Shown in pieces: positions 2,739 through 60,520 of a stretch of DNA of 64,000 nt. The position numbers and the translations under genes are program-made. The stretch's first letter is position 1. Each line of letters begins with the position of its first letter. Location of the stretch: positions 12,432,501-12,496,500 of the forward strand of contig OX485805.1 in assembly GCA_950295325.1 (NCBI GenBank), given 5' to 3'. The DNA is from Polytrichum commune. Lineage: Eukaryota > Streptophyta > Polytrichopsida > Polytrichales > Polytrichaceae. The notes beneath the pieces were generated by a model. It was not told the origin of the DNA. It saw only the letters and a list, made by a program, of their open reading frames with translations, and did not search any database.

Positions 2739-3462
2739 AAGCGGATTGCATGGAACTAAATAACCCTTAGAAACCGTAAAATGTGGAACCTTGTTTCAAG
2801 CACCCACAAAAAAGAAATTACCAAAATCAATCTAAACCTTGTTGAAATTATGGCACCCATACACTCCCGATGGGGTCATGATTAGGAAGGAATAGGTGGT
2901 TCTACTCTAATGTAGGGATGATGCAACTTGCACAACACGAGTTGTGTTAACACCCATGTTTGTCCATCGTCCATTTCCAAAATCTATTAAATTAGTGAAT
3001 CCACCAATTGTGTTTCCCACTTGATCATGTGTATACAAGGTAGACGTTGCACACCAAAAAAAAAAAAAAAAAAACCCTAAAATCTTGCACAATAGGTATA
3101 ATGATTATGAGAATGTGCACCACCTTAACATCACATTCCTTTATTGACTTAGGATAATCTATCAATAAAACTTTCAACCCTTATAACTTTTACATACAAA
3201 GAATTCATTGGAATCTTCTTGCATTCAATTTGCTGCCAAGAAAACTTACCTTTCTTTTACCTTTTTTTTAAATTTGTTTTTTTAATAAACTAGCTATAAT
3301 CAGTGCTTAAAGCGGTGGTTTTATTAGCAGGTCCCTCTATGTTAAGGATTCAATATGCCCTTCGAATAAGAAGCGTCTTACGCTTTTGTCATGCACAAAA
3401 GACCCACAAAACAAAATAGCTGACTTCCACTTTAATATTATTAGTAAACACAGTGAGGTTGT
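2739..3462. other. Intergenic sequence, poly-A tract only
   Basis: The stretch contains an A-run near 3055-3074 and AT-rich sequence. I see no gene and no repeat boundary. Confidence 0.5.
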
Positions 3463-3789
3463 CAATGTCCGGGGATATTTTTGGGCATAATTGGTCAATT
3501 TCCTAGTGTTTCCAAGTCCAACCAGTTAAAGATGTTTACAAGTCCAACCAATTAGAACACAAATGACTTTGCTTGATAATAAAGTATTACATTCTCATAA
3601 AATAATTATATCCGAATGGCAACACACACTAGTTGTTCATGAGTTCAATAGGTTATCCGGGCTTTATAGAACACAAATGACTTTGCTTGATAAAGTATTA
3701 CATTCTCATAAAATAGTCATATCCGAATGACAACACGCACTAGTTGGGATAATCAGTGTAGTTGTCGGTTCTCCCCTGGCCATTCATTG
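3463..3789 (+). mobile_element. Decayed, interrupted 226-bp-family hAT MITE
   Basis: The left part (CAATGTCCGGGGATATTTTTGGGCATAAT, 3463 onward) and right part (GTCGGTTCTCCCCTGGCCATTCATTG, ending 3789) match the two ends of the MITE family whose clean copies lie at 40404, 50579 and 50928. The middle was replaced by a direct duplication of an unrelated unit of about 78 bp (near 3558-3637 and 3668-3745). The flanking 8-mers GAGGTTGT and AAGATTGT agree at 6 of 8 positions, consistent with an old 8-bp TSD. Confidence 0.6.
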
Positions 3790-5022
3790 AAGATTGTCAT
3801 TCAATACAAGCTCAAACACCACATTCACAAGACTATCATCTTACTATAGCCCAAACCCATGGGTTCGTGGCAAGTGCCAAGCATATTCAACCTAATATAT
3901 AATGTATGTGGGCCACTCTTCTTGACTGGGCACTTACATTTGAGTGGTGCTATATGGCATTAAGAATGGACACCAAAAAATTGCATTTTATGATAAATTG
4001 GACTATGTGCTCAAATGTAGACACCATTCTAAACTGAATAGTAACACAATTCAAAAAGCGTACGCGACCACTTAAAGAGGAAGAGAGTATCCACTTTGAC
4101 TTCCTAAAACTTTTGCATCCCAACCGTGATTTTGAAAAGTGAAATAACAACACGTATGGATTCTTAATTGCTAACTATACGAGGCAATTCTTGATCAAAT
4201 CCAATGGTCAAAATCGTGTGTCGAGTTAGAGGTGCGCACGATAGGCGGCATACCTTATGTACAAGTATGTGGGATTGACCCAAGAATCAAATTGAATGCT
4301 AGAATATGAACATTCTCCTCTCTTATTATGACTAGTGTCATGTTATACGTATACGTCCACTCCTACCACTTCACATTAATAGACATGGCCATGGTTTATG
4401 TTTTGTGGCAAAGGTCGTTGATCCATCATAATTCCTTGAGGCACTGTGAACACCTCCCGTGTGGTCTGGGGCTAGGACATCCTTGGGTGTCGATTGTGAT
4501 CTGACAGATTTAAAGGTTCTTATGTTGCCCCAACTTTTGGTTTCTCTTCCGCTTGGGTAGAGCTTATAAAACTTTGCTTTGGATGAAATCCCCACCTTCA
4601 TTCACTCACAAATCTTGGATGGAAATGTTCAAACTAAGTCCTTCATTAAAAGGACCTACGGAAGAGATGATGTCAACAGGGGGATTCGAGCTCCTACCTC
4701 TTCCTTGTAAAAGGTAGAACAAAGGGTGCTAGCCATCAACTCCAAGCCCCAAATGAAGGCTTATTCGTATGTTATCTGACCTAAAAAATGTGGTCCGATT
4801 GACTTTCAATTTTTACAACAAAAATATATGGTAGTCTAGTTCACACCAATACGGTTGGATTTGAAGAAAACATATTCTATGTGGCTACACAATAGAAACT
4901 TTCAACATTGGTGCTAGAGGTGCCCGGAAATGGAATGTGAAGGCTCGAGCAATTCGGATTAAGTAAGTACGTAAGTTAATCAATTAGTCTATGAAAACTG
5001 CTTATAAGAAGATGATTACTTG
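3790..5022. other. Intergenic sequence, no gene seen
   Basis: Short open frames near 3950-4153 and 4371-4601 (minus strand) lack recognisable domains. I found no well-bounded repeat. Confidence 0.4.
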
Positions 5023-55379: not shown

Positions 55380-56213
55380 ATGGCTTCACGTGCCTTAATC
55401 AACACTTCTTAAGCTAAAAGTGCCCCTCTTAGACTCAAATGTATTCTTGCATCTCAATCCATTCAAGTCATAGCCTTTTGCTCTCAATCCGCTCAAGTCA
55501 TACCATTTTGTTTTCAAATGTGCCTTTGCACACTCAATCCACTTAAGTCATATGCTTTGGAACTAAATTGAGCCCTTTTGCTCTCAAAAATGATTTTGCA
55601 CCATCTATTCATTCAAGTCATATCCTTTTGAACTCAAATGAGCCTTCTTATTCTCAATTGTCCCTTTGCACCCTCCCTCCACTCAAATACGCCTTTTTAA
55701 TCTCAAAAATGTCTTTACACTCTCAATCCACTCAAGTCCGATCCTTTTGAGCTCAAATAAACTCTCATGCTCTCAAATGTGCCTTTGCACCTTTAAATCA
55801 GACCCTCTTCAACTCTAATGTGCACTTGCACACTTAAACGACTCGTATTAAATTCTCTTCATCTTTAACTCAAATGTGTCTTTGCACCTTCAAATCATTC
55901 GAATTAGGCTATTTTCAACTTTGATATGCATTTCACCCTAAAACCACTCAAATCGTGTCTTTTTCTCAACTCAAATGTGTCTTTGTACCCTCAAATCACT
56001 CAAACAAGCCCTTTTGGTCTCAAATGTGTCTTTACACCCTCAATTCATTCAAGCCAAATCCTTTTGAGCTCAAATGAGCCCTCTTCTTTCAAGTGTGCCT
56101 TTGAATCTTTAAATCAAACCCTCTTCAACTCTAATGTGCACTTGCACAATCAACCACACATATGAAATCCTCTTCAACTCAAATGTGCCTTTGCACCCTC
56201 AAATCACTCCAAT
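55380..56213 (+). repeat. Degenerate tandem array, left part
   Basis: A loosely repeated unit of roughly 40-80 nt is built on CTCAAATGTGCCTTTGCACC, CTCAATCCACTCAAGTCAT and CCTTTTGAGCTCAAATGAGC. Units vary in length and sequence. The same units resume at 60110, after the pogo-like insertion. The open frames here are side effects of the repeat. Confidence 0.8.
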
Positions 56214-56539
56214 TACCGTAGCGCCATAGCTGGTTCATGCACCTCAAAACGAATATTTATTTATTTATTGAAAAATAAGGTTCGTCAACGAAAAATAGAA
56301 TTTATGCAATTTCGTCAATCCTATGATTTTAAAAAGATTAATTCGTTTTTTCGTTAAGGTCCAGCAGTTGTGCAAGTAGGTTGTTGTTTTTTCATTCATT
56401 CGTGGCGGCTTCTTGGCCTTAGACCTAAGTATCCACCTTAACTTTACTTAGTGCGGCTCTTGTTCGTCTTTGCACAATGTATGTGTTAGGTCTTTTTTTA
56501 TGTATTTGCACTTTGATATGTGTGAGAAGAGTGTTAGAA

Positions 56540-58318
56540 ATGGCACCAAAACAACGACAAGTTGATTTTTCTTTTATCCCTATTAGCAAGGAAGAGAGGG
56601 AGATGGATATAGAAAGAGAGTTTGCCGCTTTGAGTGAGAGATTGCAGGAGGAGCAATCAAGGCCCAAAAAAGAGACATTCAAGCGGCCAATAGGGAGACC
56701 AAGGAAGGAGAGACAAGCAATGCTAATGAAGCCAAAGGTTGAGAGGAAGAAGCCAATTATCAAGCCAAAGAAGGTCAAAGGTTCATACACCAATTGGTTC
56801 ACCCCTATTCTCTGGCCTCCTATATACAAAGGTGTAAAACAACATCGTAATATCACAAAGGCATGGAGTTTTCTTGGGTCAGCTTATAGAAAACTAGAAG
56901 ATCTATCTTGTGTCTAAGGACAATTTATCTAAAAGCTCTATGCGGGAATGGTTTCATCCGAATAGAGATTTGAAGGAGACCTATAAATGGTGTGTCGATT
57001 TTGGCACATACTTTGTCAAAACTGCACAACGCTGCCCAATCTTGGAATCTAATCCAATTATGAAGAATGAGATTTGTGCCATTCTTAGGAATCAAAGAAA
57101 AACATGCCAACCTTTATATGCAGTTTGCATTCAACCACTTATAAAGGCCATAATACAAGAAAAAACTCCATAACTCTTAGAAAGTATGCATAATACCTCG
57201 TTTAATGTTTTTTATGCTTGGACTAAGAATTTTGTGAAGAGTGAATTGAATTGGAGTTACCGAGCAGCAACCAGTGCAGCAGGAAAACTACCAAAAGATT
57301 ATGAGGACTAAGATAAGGCTATGGCTCAAAGATATGCATACTTGGTAAGCGTTCACAACATTCCTTCGGAATTAATTATCAACACTGACAAAACCGGGAT
57401 ACATCTTTTTCCTATATGTGGCAGTAGAACATGAGAAACGAAGGGTGCTAAGCATATTAGAATACATGGACAAGACGACAAACGACAAATTATTGTGGCA
57501 GTATATTCTACAACTAGTGGAAAATGCCTCCCTTTTCAGGCAATTTTCCAATTGATAACTAACAGAAGTCTACCGAAGTTAGAAGGGGGGAAGTATGATT
57601 GTGAATATAAATGATGGAATTTGACTTTCAGCCATAACCATTGGTCTACTTTGGACACATGCAAATAATTTGTGGAGAAGATATTGGTACTGTATAAGGA
57701 CTCACAGGTGGAACTATTGAACCTTCCAGCAATGCAAGAAATAATTTGGCTCATCGATTGCTAAAGTGTTTACATCAGTAAGGAATTTCGGGAGTAGATG
57801 AAGAATCATTATTCCAAAATTCACATTCTTTACATTCCAGCAAATTGTACAAGTATCTATCAGCATGCAGATGTTATTATTTAATGACCGTTCAAACATG
57901 CATTTCAACAAACATTTAACAAGTATACTATGGAGGCTATAACAAAGCAACTGAAGGCATGTGAGGATGTTCACATAGACTTCAAAATGAGCAAACTAAA
58001 ACCTCACATATATGTTGCATAGACAAATGTTTTAAGTTGGATTGCTATGGTCCTTAAGGGTTAGGAGCGAATTGAACTCCTACGTGTTTTTGACAAAGAA
58101 TTCCAAAAGCAAGCTATGTTGGACAACATAAAAACACCATTATTCAAGACAATTGAAGAGGAGGTTCAGACATACAACACAAAATGTAACGAGGAGATAG
58201 ACATTGAAATGTCTTTAGACATTGTTATGGAAGAGAGCTTGACAAAAGTTGTTGAATTGTCAAAGTCTATTTCTTCAAGCAATATGATTACTATTAGAAA
58301 TCTAGCTAGAAAGAAGTG
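56540..58318 (+). pseudogene. Pogo-like DDE transposase with AT-hook, multiply disabled
   Basis: The first 126 codons from ATG 56540 are open and include a charged stretch and an AT-hook core (P-I-G-R-P-R-K-E-R). Then come S-M-R-E-W-F and, in frames broken by at least eight stops, N-T-D-K-T-G-I-H-L-F-P near 57380-57410 (first catalytic D), L-I-D-C followed by S-V-Y near 57750 (second D) and Y-I-P-A-N-C-T-S-I-Y-Q-H-A-D-V near 57830-57880 (third D). About 37 residues separate the last two. The layout matches pogo/Tigger-type DDE endonucleases of the Tc1/mariner superfamily. The last 68 codons (58116-58318) are open. No functional product is possible as read. Confidence 0.85.
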
Positions 58319-58817
58319 ACAATTTTGATTGTGTAAGTGTATTATTTCACAATTTTTCATTTGCATAAATATGTTCGGAATTTACGCATAAAGTTGAATG
58401 TTGTACAAGTCACTCAACTAACCACCATTATCTACGTAACATTGTCATCATTGTCTACATATGATGTTCATTTTTATGAATATAGTAGAATTCTCTTACA
58501 ATGTGAAGTAACCTACATAGACAATTAGGTTCTACTGAACCAGTATGGATTCAAAAAACTTGATCTCTCATAACCAAAAACATTCAAGGCAAGGTAAAGT
58601 GAGCTATGCTAAGGCAGTAAGCTGCAATCAACAATCCAGACACAAAATCCATATCAAAATGTAATTTTTTCTACATGATCTCACTCACATGCACATCTGT
58701 TTAAGATAGATTTCTGAAGAACCAAACTTGAACAAATAAGTCAAGATCCAAGAAACTTGTCGTATAATGTACTGGACATAAATCACATAATGTTCAAAGA
58801 ATCCTACTTTAACTTAC

Positions 58818-58958
58818 CCCACCACCCGCAACAGCAGGGGCCCAAAGAAGAACTAAGCAACTCGATATTAAGACCAGGAAATAACCAAACGCTGCATAAG
58901 CAAGGAATACAAATGGCAAATTCATCCCTTCGTCGATAGTTTTCTGTGTCCAGTCTTT
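58818..58958 (-). pseudogene. Captured chloride-channel (CLC)-like exon fragment
   Basis: On the minus strand a 141-nt, 47-codon exon-like block follows an acceptor (TTGGTGATGCAG) and precedes a donor (GTAAG). It encodes two parts typical of CLC transporters: N-L-P-F-V-F-L-A-Y with a hydrophobic segment, then W-A-P-A-V-A-G-G-G, where CLC proteins have the start of the GSGIPE ion-selectivity motif. The rest of the protein is absent. It lies inside the pogo-like element, opposite in direction to the transposase, so I infer capture from a host gene including flanking intron sequence. Confidence 0.65.
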
Positions 58959-59231
58959 CTGCATCACCAATTCAAAGGTCACTTGTTTGTCAGTTGGAAA
59001 TTTAAAGAGACAGAGGGTGGACAAAATGAAAACTGCAGAATCACCAACCCTATACAAAGCAGATTCAAGCCATCCCACGCTCTCAACACAAAATCCAGCA
59101 ACGCGTATCTTAAGCATAGTTATCAAAGCCAGATTGCGGATAAGGAACATGGCCTCTATTTCTTCAACACAGAAAATAAGTAAATGACTTGCTTAGCTCA
59201 AAAAAAGATAAACCGTTTACAACCAACATAC

Positions 59232-59361
59232 CTGCTGTAAAGCACGACGAGCCTCTTCCCGCTCAACTTCCTTTTCTGCTTATCGAGTATAGCAGCCTGA
59301 GCTTGAGCTTTTTGTTTCGTAACTTCTGTTGCCTTTGCTTCTGCATGCAACCGGGTTTTTT
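59232..59361 (-). pseudogene. Captured GTE/bromodomain-protein-like exon fragment
   Basis: On the minus strand an acceptor (AACTGTGCAG) and donor (GTATGT) bound 130 nt. One frame reads L-H-A-E-A-K-A-T-E-V-T-K-Q-K-A-Q-A-Q-A-A. After a one-base shift it continues A-E-K-E-V-E-R-E-E-A-R-R-A-L-Q-Q. This Ala/Glu/Arg-rich coiled coil resembles the C-terminal region of plant GTE (BET-type bromodomain) proteins ahead of their M-E-K-T-V motif. The short, compositionally biased sequence makes the family call tentative. The internal frameshift shows it is not a working exon. Confidence 0.5.
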
Positions 59362-59369
59362 CTGCACAG

Positions 59370-60107
59370 TTGAAAAGTAAAGATCCCTGATTACATTGCA
59401 GGAAACAGACTTACGAAAGAACACACAAAAAAACAAGGATGCAAGCATCCAAATCTCCACATATCTAATCACAACCATTTTCCAGATGAAGGAGTCCCTA
59501 TGCATTCCTACAGGTGGGCACACATGCTGCTAATGAAAACAAAAAGTAGCAACAACATGTGTTGTTGACCATGTAGATGGACAACAAATCTCTTTACTTA
59601 AACATCGACTAACAATTACATCAAAAGATCATTCAAGCATATGGGAAGGTGGCGAGTGAAAACCTTGGGAATTAGCTCATGCCCTTATCCCCTAACGAAT
59701 GAGAACAACGTGATTTGCAAATATAAAAGCATAAAAACGATGGTTAGGTATAGGTTGGTGGAGCCGCTCCCCGTGTAGAAGCCTTTGGGTTTCCTCGCCC
59801 TCATGAGCCCCTCCTCTACACTTACTAGGCAAAATGAAGGCAATGCATTTTAAGGGTAGCATTGGGAAGTGCTTGGTGTTTTGTCCCATGACTTGAGCAA
59901 CCCCATGAAGTTCGTGAGCAAGGCGCCAAGCCATTAACGCGTAATCATGCATTCTCTTATAACACGTTGACGTGGTTGGAGCTTAGGAGTTTCGTTTTTT
60001 TTCTAATGTAAAATTTCAATGTTCGTTTGATTCGACTCATAATTTCCGATTTTTTTTTGTTTTTTATTTGAGAATTATTTTTGCACGAACCAGCTATGGT
60101 GCTTTGG
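59370..60107. other. Distal part of the pogo-like element, content unrecognised
   Basis: A minus-strand frame of 86 codons (59692-59952) has a protein-like composition but no family I recognise. It might be a third captured fragment. The last 100 bp are the AT-rich terminal region. Confidence 0.35.
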
Positions 60108-60109
60108 TA

Positions 60110-60520
60110 ATTCAATTTCAATTCTCATGTGCATTTCACCTTCAAACCATTCAAATCATGCCTTTCTAAACTCAAATGTGCATTTGCACCCTCCATCCAC
60201 TCAAATCAAGTCCTCTTCAACTCAAATGACCTTCAATACATTTGAGTATGCACAATTACACTCAACCAACTCAACTGAACACTCAATTGCATCAAACATC
60301 CTGTCAAGTATTAGAAACATTCAAATCAACACCTACAACCTCCAAATGTGCACTTGTACACTTACGAAGCTTCAATATTCAAACTTCCAAAAACCAACTA
60401 ATGCTCCAAACATGCACCATGCACCTCCAACATGAAGCACCCCAAAACCTCCTCCAATCCCTAAAACCACTCAAGATCCACTCCCTAACAAACTAGCAAT
60501 CAAAACTCTAACTCAAGAAT
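60110..60520 (+). repeat. Degenerate tandem array, right part
   Basis: Continues the array interrupted at 56213. Units such as CTCATGTGCATTTCACCTTC and CTCAAATGTGCATTTGCACC recur before fading near 60520. Confidence 0.75.

Follow-up and report, generated by a model that had tools for sequence, protein, structure and literature searches.

A predicted Pack-TIR transposon of the pogo group carrying fragments of three host genes in the moss Polytrichum commune

The element and its transposase relic

The stretch of DNA analyzed herein, which we refer to as the window, comprises 64,000 nucleotides of the genome of the moss Polytrichum commune (C3:12432501-12496500, where the label C denotes a chromosome and, below, the label L a locus or copy number). 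It contains at 56216..60107 a pogo-type element, without a strand as a whole, that has TA on both sides (56214-56215 and 60108-60109) and was delimited by these dinucleotides, by its inverted repeat, by termini in common with 17 further copies and by genome-wide matches. Its sequence identifies it as a Pack-type transposon, of the kind termed Pack-TIR, that belongs to the pogo (IS630-Tc1-mariner) group and is both decayed and non-autonomous. Inverted-repeat detection and the line-up of the ends of copies place the terminal inverted repeats at 56216..56241 (plus strand) and 60082..60107 (minus strand), within a 31-nt inverted repeat (56211-56241 and 60082-60112) that is 87% complementary. The terminal repeat CCGTAGCACCATAGCTGGTTCGTGCA is common to 18 copies that were aligned at one or both ends, including that of the window; it almost always adjoins TA, and the termini have decayed in several copies, e.g., at the left end of L010 and the right end of L024. 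Both marks by which the pogo superfamily is recognized, duplication of a TA target site and short inverted repeats at the termini, are present. MULE, CACTA and Helitron elements are told by their own duplications, ends or transposase, and none of these hallmarks is seen here; the element has instead TA duplications, 26-bp repeats and DDE_1.

The decayed transposase gene extends over 56429..58319 on the plus strand, with an AT-hook region near 56690 (RPIGRPRKER, recognized by eye) and a DDE part that reaches to about 58020. Its open frames are repeatedly interrupted, by numerous stops and frameshifts, as expected of a non-autonomous element, and six short frames in the window, scanned singly against Pfam, gave no match at E 1. 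The identity of the relic comes from sister copies: window positions 56214-58476 are 90.6% identical at the DNA level to L007, and frames of L007 and L009 match Pfam DDE_1 (PF03184) at 1.6e-10 and 3.6e-8, respectively. In the sister copy L008 the second and third catalytic aspartates are separated by 37 residues, the first (NTDQTG) being assigned by eye, and HTH_Tnp_Tc5, the CENP-B/Tc5-type helix-turn-helix domain, is matched in L008 and L010 at E 0.0049, below its cut-off. These predicted transposase features fit the pogo group.

The element is bordered on both sides (window positions 55700-56215 and 60110-60480) by an array of degenerate repeats, each about 50 bases long (CTCAAATGTGTCTTTGCACC type). 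The window flanks, when joined, align to positions 55780-56026 of the window at 80% over 248 columns without a long break, a stretch that resembles a paralogous empty site, and since this part of the array is uninterrupted, the element was inserted into a pre-existing array.

Captured gene fragments and their donors

DNA copies of CLC, GTE and EXO70 sequence, with introns, lie at interior positions of the element, and its relatives carry overlapping and additional fragments. The CLC (chloride-channel-like) fragment at 58698..59129, with its sense on the minus strand, consists of intron, exon and intron and is 96.3% identical over 432 columns to C2:43841218-43841649 (E 2.1e-202), and a paralogue at C2:42543714-42544119 matches it at 84%. 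Its 141-bp exon (58818..58958, minus strand) is open, has two amino-acid changes and retains its borders (CAG and GTAAGT), and the donor introns align on both sides of it in a residue-level alignment with positions counted by hand. Within the donor region (L001), Voltage_CLC is matched on two separate exons, neither of which reaches the curated cut-off (E 0.0011 and 0.00035), and the motif GQEGPMVHIGAA was seen by eye. The frame of the exon that became cargo has no match in Pfam, and the 106-residue donor frame has none in the Protein Data Bank at 0.01. By eye, the gene runs on past the fragment on both sides, and the 9.0 kb of L001 around the donor contain no element sequence other than the cargo match itself.

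The GTE (BET bromodomain gene) fragment at 59118..59453, also with its sense on the minus strand, has the same intron, exon and intron arrangement and is 95.3% identical over 337 columns to C1:52128386-52128721 (E 1.4e-148); with E-values such as these, chance is excluded for both the CLC and the GTE matches. Its coiled-coil exon (59232..59361, minus strand) has intact borders (CAG and GTATGT) and a frame broken by a 1-bp deletion, and here too the donor introns align on both sides, again with positions counted by hand in a residue-level alignment. One frame of the donor locus (L016), upstream, contains both Bromodomain (1.9e-21) and BET (1.2e-25), and the frame L016:4264-4623 has no match in Pfam. 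As with the CLC donor, the gene by eye continues past the fragment on both sides, and no element sequence apart from the cargo match is present in the 8.0 kb of L016 around it. Three short cargo frames of the window, scanned singly against Pfam, gave no match at E 1.

The third fragment, at 59455..59682 with its sense on the minus strand, comprises the tail of an EXO70 exon and the sequence after it, and is 84.9% identical to positions 776-1013 of L026, exons of which match Exo70_C at 7.6e-12 and 4.6e-13. EXO70 loci (L026, L027, L045 and L046) are present on several chromosomes, and their identity to one another reaches 97% over 1.6 kb, between L026 and L027, so the EXO70 segments have themselves been duplicated recently.

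A preliminary description, made from the sequence of the window without database searches, had proposed a TA-flanked element with matching ends, a relic of a DDE/AT-hook transposase, and two exons bordered by splice signals; the ends and the relic are borne out by the copies described above, and the exons lie exactly where they had been placed. Its assignment of the donors to the CLC and GTE families also agrees with the donor domains, at a sub-cutoff level for CLC, and two of the checks that it had proposed gave positive results, in that the flanking introns match the parental genes and copies both with and without the fragments exist. The count of two captured genes has to be revised to three, as EXO70 had been overlooked. 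None of the three contrary outcomes that it had named, i.e., fragments that match no host gene or ordinary transposon sequence, the same region carried by all family members as part of their own gene, or minus-strand blocks within an intact gene older than the insertion, came about.

Copies, lineages and the origin of the cargo

A search of the 408-Mb genome with the whole element gave at least 72 matching places (the best 40 of 457 candidates were scored). Thirty-two copies, including that of the window, were mapped from this search and from searches with the cargo, and because the copies were chosen partly by their cargo, the cargo counts are biased upward. With cargo called at E ≤ 1e-5 and an identity of at least 80%, CLC is present in 14 of the 32 copies, GTE in 12, EXO70 in 11, EFG1 in six and TIR-NBS-LRR in two, while sequence of a C4 locus (L031) is in one and a C7 stretch (L032 2343-2886) in four. 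At least one piece of CLC, GTE, EXO70 or EFG1 is carried by 30 of the copies, the exceptions being L028 and L029. These counts omit a C4b match in L025, which falls beyond the bounds of the element, as well as the matches to C7 that L006 and L028 have, which involve another stretch of L032. L020, which matches the element only in part, is not among the 32. Seven short copies have, from their coordinates alone, the first approximately 420 bases joined to the last approximately 190 and are free of cargo (e.g., C1:9910070-9910693).

The GTE cargo represents three stretches of the gene, namely 3885-4567, 3226-3594 linked in altered order with 3952-3885, and 3738-3849. EFG1 is nested within the CLC piece in two copies (L010 and L011+L017), and in L007 a C4 stretch (98%) is nested within a C2 stretch (97% and 94% on its two sides), which shows that cargo was acquired stepwise. 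Identities to the donors are mostly 90-98%, EXO70 being older at 82-95%. The same cargo joints recur in copies that lie on several chromosomes and whose flanks differ, and from this distribution we infer that the element is mobilized as a unit together with its cargo, as is characteristic of a Pack-TIR. The further properties of Pack-TYPE and Pack-TIR elements, host gene sequence inside terminal repeats and an identifiable parent elsewhere, are likewise found.

Cargo sense is on the minus strand of the element for all six donors of known direction (CLC, GTE, EXO70, EFG1, TIR-NBS-LRR and L031, where the direction of the last comes from a 471-residue frame with a sub-cutoff TauE match), giving a two-sided p of about 0.03 under a coin toss. 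Since this pattern was noticed in retrospect, and since three more donors (C7, L032; C2, L056; and C4, L057), which were left out of the count, have no assigned strand, the one-sided cargo strand is only a lead. A candidate reason for such a bias is possible interference of splice sites in sense orientation with the message for the transposase.

The copy in the window is probably a recombinant whose left part came from a CLC-carrying lineage and whose right part came from a GTE/EXO70-carrying lineage. To within one base, the window, L010 and L011+L017 have the same left joint between element and CLC. By its 3' subterminal region (59684..60107, without a strand), which most of the mapped copies have in common, the copy in the window belongs to the GTE lineage. 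The tree of this end, built from 25 copies and 434 columns, has one clade (99/96) of GTE carriers, L014 and the window copy, and a second (95/94) of the CLC carriers together with L043, which carries both CLC and GTE. An approximately unbiased (AU) test rejected a tree with the window copy forced into the CLC carriers (p 0.0008), the CLC group being defined by cargo in the tree-making script and the test being run after the tree had been seen. Further mixtures of this type appear to be represented by L012, with EFG1 on the left and GTE on the right, and by L043 and L044, with a GTE piece and a CLC remnant by the 3' end.

We consider it likely that capture during break repair, with later mobilization and recombination between copies, is the explanation of the cargo. 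According to this proposal, double-strand breaks or stalled forks would arise within copies of the element, and their repair would switch at short microhomologies to unrelated chromosomal templates and paste in short genomic segments. The transposase of other copies could then mobilize the loaded elements, subsequent breaks would trim the cargo or put new fragments into old, and element copies would recombine with one another, the window copy potentially combining the left of the CLC lineage, with the same joint, and the right of the GTE/EXO70 lineage. The retention of introns indicates capture from DNA. Nine joints were tried by exact matching, of which five were measured and four had no shared word, and the exact overlaps are 1 bp at GTE|EXO70 of L002 and 2 bp at EXO70|3' end of L012. 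By eye, overlaps of about 1-4 bp are seen at EFG1|CLC in L011+L017 and in L023, at TNL|GTE in L002 and at C4|C2 in L007.

Several observations weigh against this explanation or parts of it. The three joints of the window copy have filler of 3, 8 and 1 bases and no overlap, which is partly due to later substitutions, and the microhomology elsewhere stands without a comparison to random joints. The 5'-end tree (23 copies) and windowed identity place the left half of the window copy with neither parent, so the claim of recombination rests on the shared joint and the 3' tree, and the same trees would result from gene conversion confined to the 3' end. In addition, neither a transposition nor a repair event was observed.

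An arrangement in which CLC-GTE-EXO70 is the ancestral order, all other copies are simple deletion products and lineages did not recombine would account for the many small copies that resemble internal deletions, and for the CLC remnant meeting the 3' end at the same point (59684 or 59685) in 10 of the 14 CLC carriers. Under such a history, however, the 3' tree should nest the CLC carriers with the window copy, a grouping that the AU test rejects, and the GTE pieces are arranged against gene order in L012, L025 and L040-L042. Moreover, L002 carries GTE yet retains, as do L006, L009 and L021, element-like sequence beyond 58698 where the window copy has CLC, and so the cargo order of the window is not simply ancestral. 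We therefore regard this simpler history as improbable. The fusion of two neighboring insertions, by which the host DNA between them becomes interior once the internal ends are lost, would likewise put cargo inside an element and has been argued for Pack-TYPE elements of several superfamilies including Pack-Mariner (PMC8903248). Insertions that are older and lie outside the examined donor stretches, or that have been lost since, are compatible with such a history. Nevertheless, the examined stretches of the CLC and GTE loci (L001 and L016) and of L030-L033 are free of element sequence, the cargo joints are deep in the element with no internal terminal repeat at those inspected, newer cargo is nested in older, and the donors are on several chromosomes. 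The nested order, the donors of 90-98% identity and the element-free donor stretches favor break repair over neighbor fusion, which we think quite improbable here.

That the cargo was copied into DNA from spliced transcripts is suggested by donor stretches that are skipped in L010 and L007, and yet introns are kept in the CLC and GTE pieces, which refutes an RNA origin for these pieces of the window. The skipped stretches in L010 (donor L031) and in L007 (donors L056 on C2 and L057 on C4) were considered as removed introns and rejected, as their borders are not GT-AG, which argues against RNA templates, and capture by way of RNA is highly improbable overall. The intact splice borders would also be expected if the minus-strand blocks were an old host gene around which a transposon had decayed. 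This reading is refuted and its probability is negligible, as unrelated gene families stand in a row with each gene found elsewhere, the same fragments occur in other copies at unrelated places, and the two flanks, once joined, correspond to a part of the repeat array that has no interruption. Break-repair capture with subsequent mobilization and recombination hence remains the explanation that we prefer.

Relation to known systems and further observations

Pack-MULE, Pack-CACTA and Ds-type elements belong to other superfamilies, and their target duplications are longer, at 8-9 bp or 3-5 bp. Pack-MULEs, Pack-CACTA and Ds-l4 elements resemble the present family in that intron-containing gene fragments serve as filler DNA. 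Gene fragments have been described within Ds-like elements (PMC3260210). Closer relatives are the Pack-Mariner elements of rice and maize, described together with the fusion model (PMC8903248), which also have TA duplications, terminal repeats and internal gene fragments, some from several donors, and of which one cluster is shown both with and without cargo. They differ in having been found with Stowaway terminal repeats, in being mostly low copy and in being explained by neighbor fusion, whereas the moss family is distinguished by a pogo-type transposase, nested cargo, element-free donor stretches and apparent recombination between lineages. In animals, 370 Pack-TIRs have been reported, of which 115 are TcMariner, including the gibbon Pack-Tigger1 (PMC8277862), and Tigger is a family of the pogo group (PMC7386202). 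The animal elements share internal capture, microhomology (1-36 bp, median 2 bp, at one or more breakpoints in 67.6% of cases) and a gap-filling or template-switching model, but their single-copy cases are biased to nearby sources (PMC8277862), in contrast to cargo that comes from several chromosomes and is stacked across many copies.

Among land plants, pogo elements have been reported in dicots plus Selaginella (PMC7325037), and the Lemi pogo family in 23 eudicots (PMC7386202). Lemi is likewise of pogo type, with eudicot hosts rather than a moss, and the string 'captur' is absent from the main text of the Lemi survey (PMC7386202). No plant pogo element with captured genes was found in the literature searched, which covered titles and the openings of abstracts and had most subscription journals outside it. 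A pogo-type Pack-TIR in a plant appears to be a new addition to a known kind. The preliminary description was correct that a pogo element had captured genes, although what it saw is not a single event but one product of capture and recombination throughout a family. Its view of this as a little-described capture route is valid for pogo elements of plants alone, as far as the literature was searched, since Pack-Mariner and Pack-Tigger1, which are Tc1/mariner relatives, have been published (PMC8903248, PMC8277862).

The moss family adds the pogo group, in a plant whose lineage probably diverged early, to the transposons that capture and mix parts of genes, and its many joints within one genome are material for testing the mechanism of capture. 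The uniform cargo strand, if true, would point to selection or to transcription-linked capture. A bolder proposal, which we put forward tentatively and consider rather doubtful, is that the family might be a modular shuffler of gene fragments, in which capture is ongoing and always with the sense opposite to the transposase, cargo is recombined between lineages, and transcription from the 3' end would give spliced chimeric RNAs of unrelated host genes.

Some cargo is less readily assigned. No gene was recognized in the frames tried of the donors on C7 (L032), C2 (L056) and C4 (L057), and the unique 583-bp interior of L003, L004 and L005 gave, among the best 40 candidates, no matches beyond its three copies and a short first part that is repeated. 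In the 8-kb copy L017/L011 (C1:27805596-27810372), the EFG1 cargo is split by a repeated sequence that has at least 30 partial matches and is probably a piece of a long terminal repeat (LTR) retrotransposon. The TIR-NBS-LRR cargo of L002 is matched at 86-92% in six places on C4 (C4:139377-528027 and C4:4073540), and the TIR domain in L033, the one of these places that was scanned, indicates that the donor is a disease-resistance gene family. Separately, the single-domain chains of the Protein Data Bank to which a light-harvesting protein of this genome is most similar are 8htu_U and 7xqp_a (482 and 480.1 bits; the next has 447.4), both from the moss Physcomitrium patens, and the longer chain 9vfj_2, in which two domains match, reaches a total of 547.9. 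Fourteen Lhcb matches, each in one open frame and all with the same Pfam scores, lie within about 95 kb at C5:1751760-1846160 (L048-L055 and six further places), a cluster that represents strong local amplification of one light-harvesting gene.

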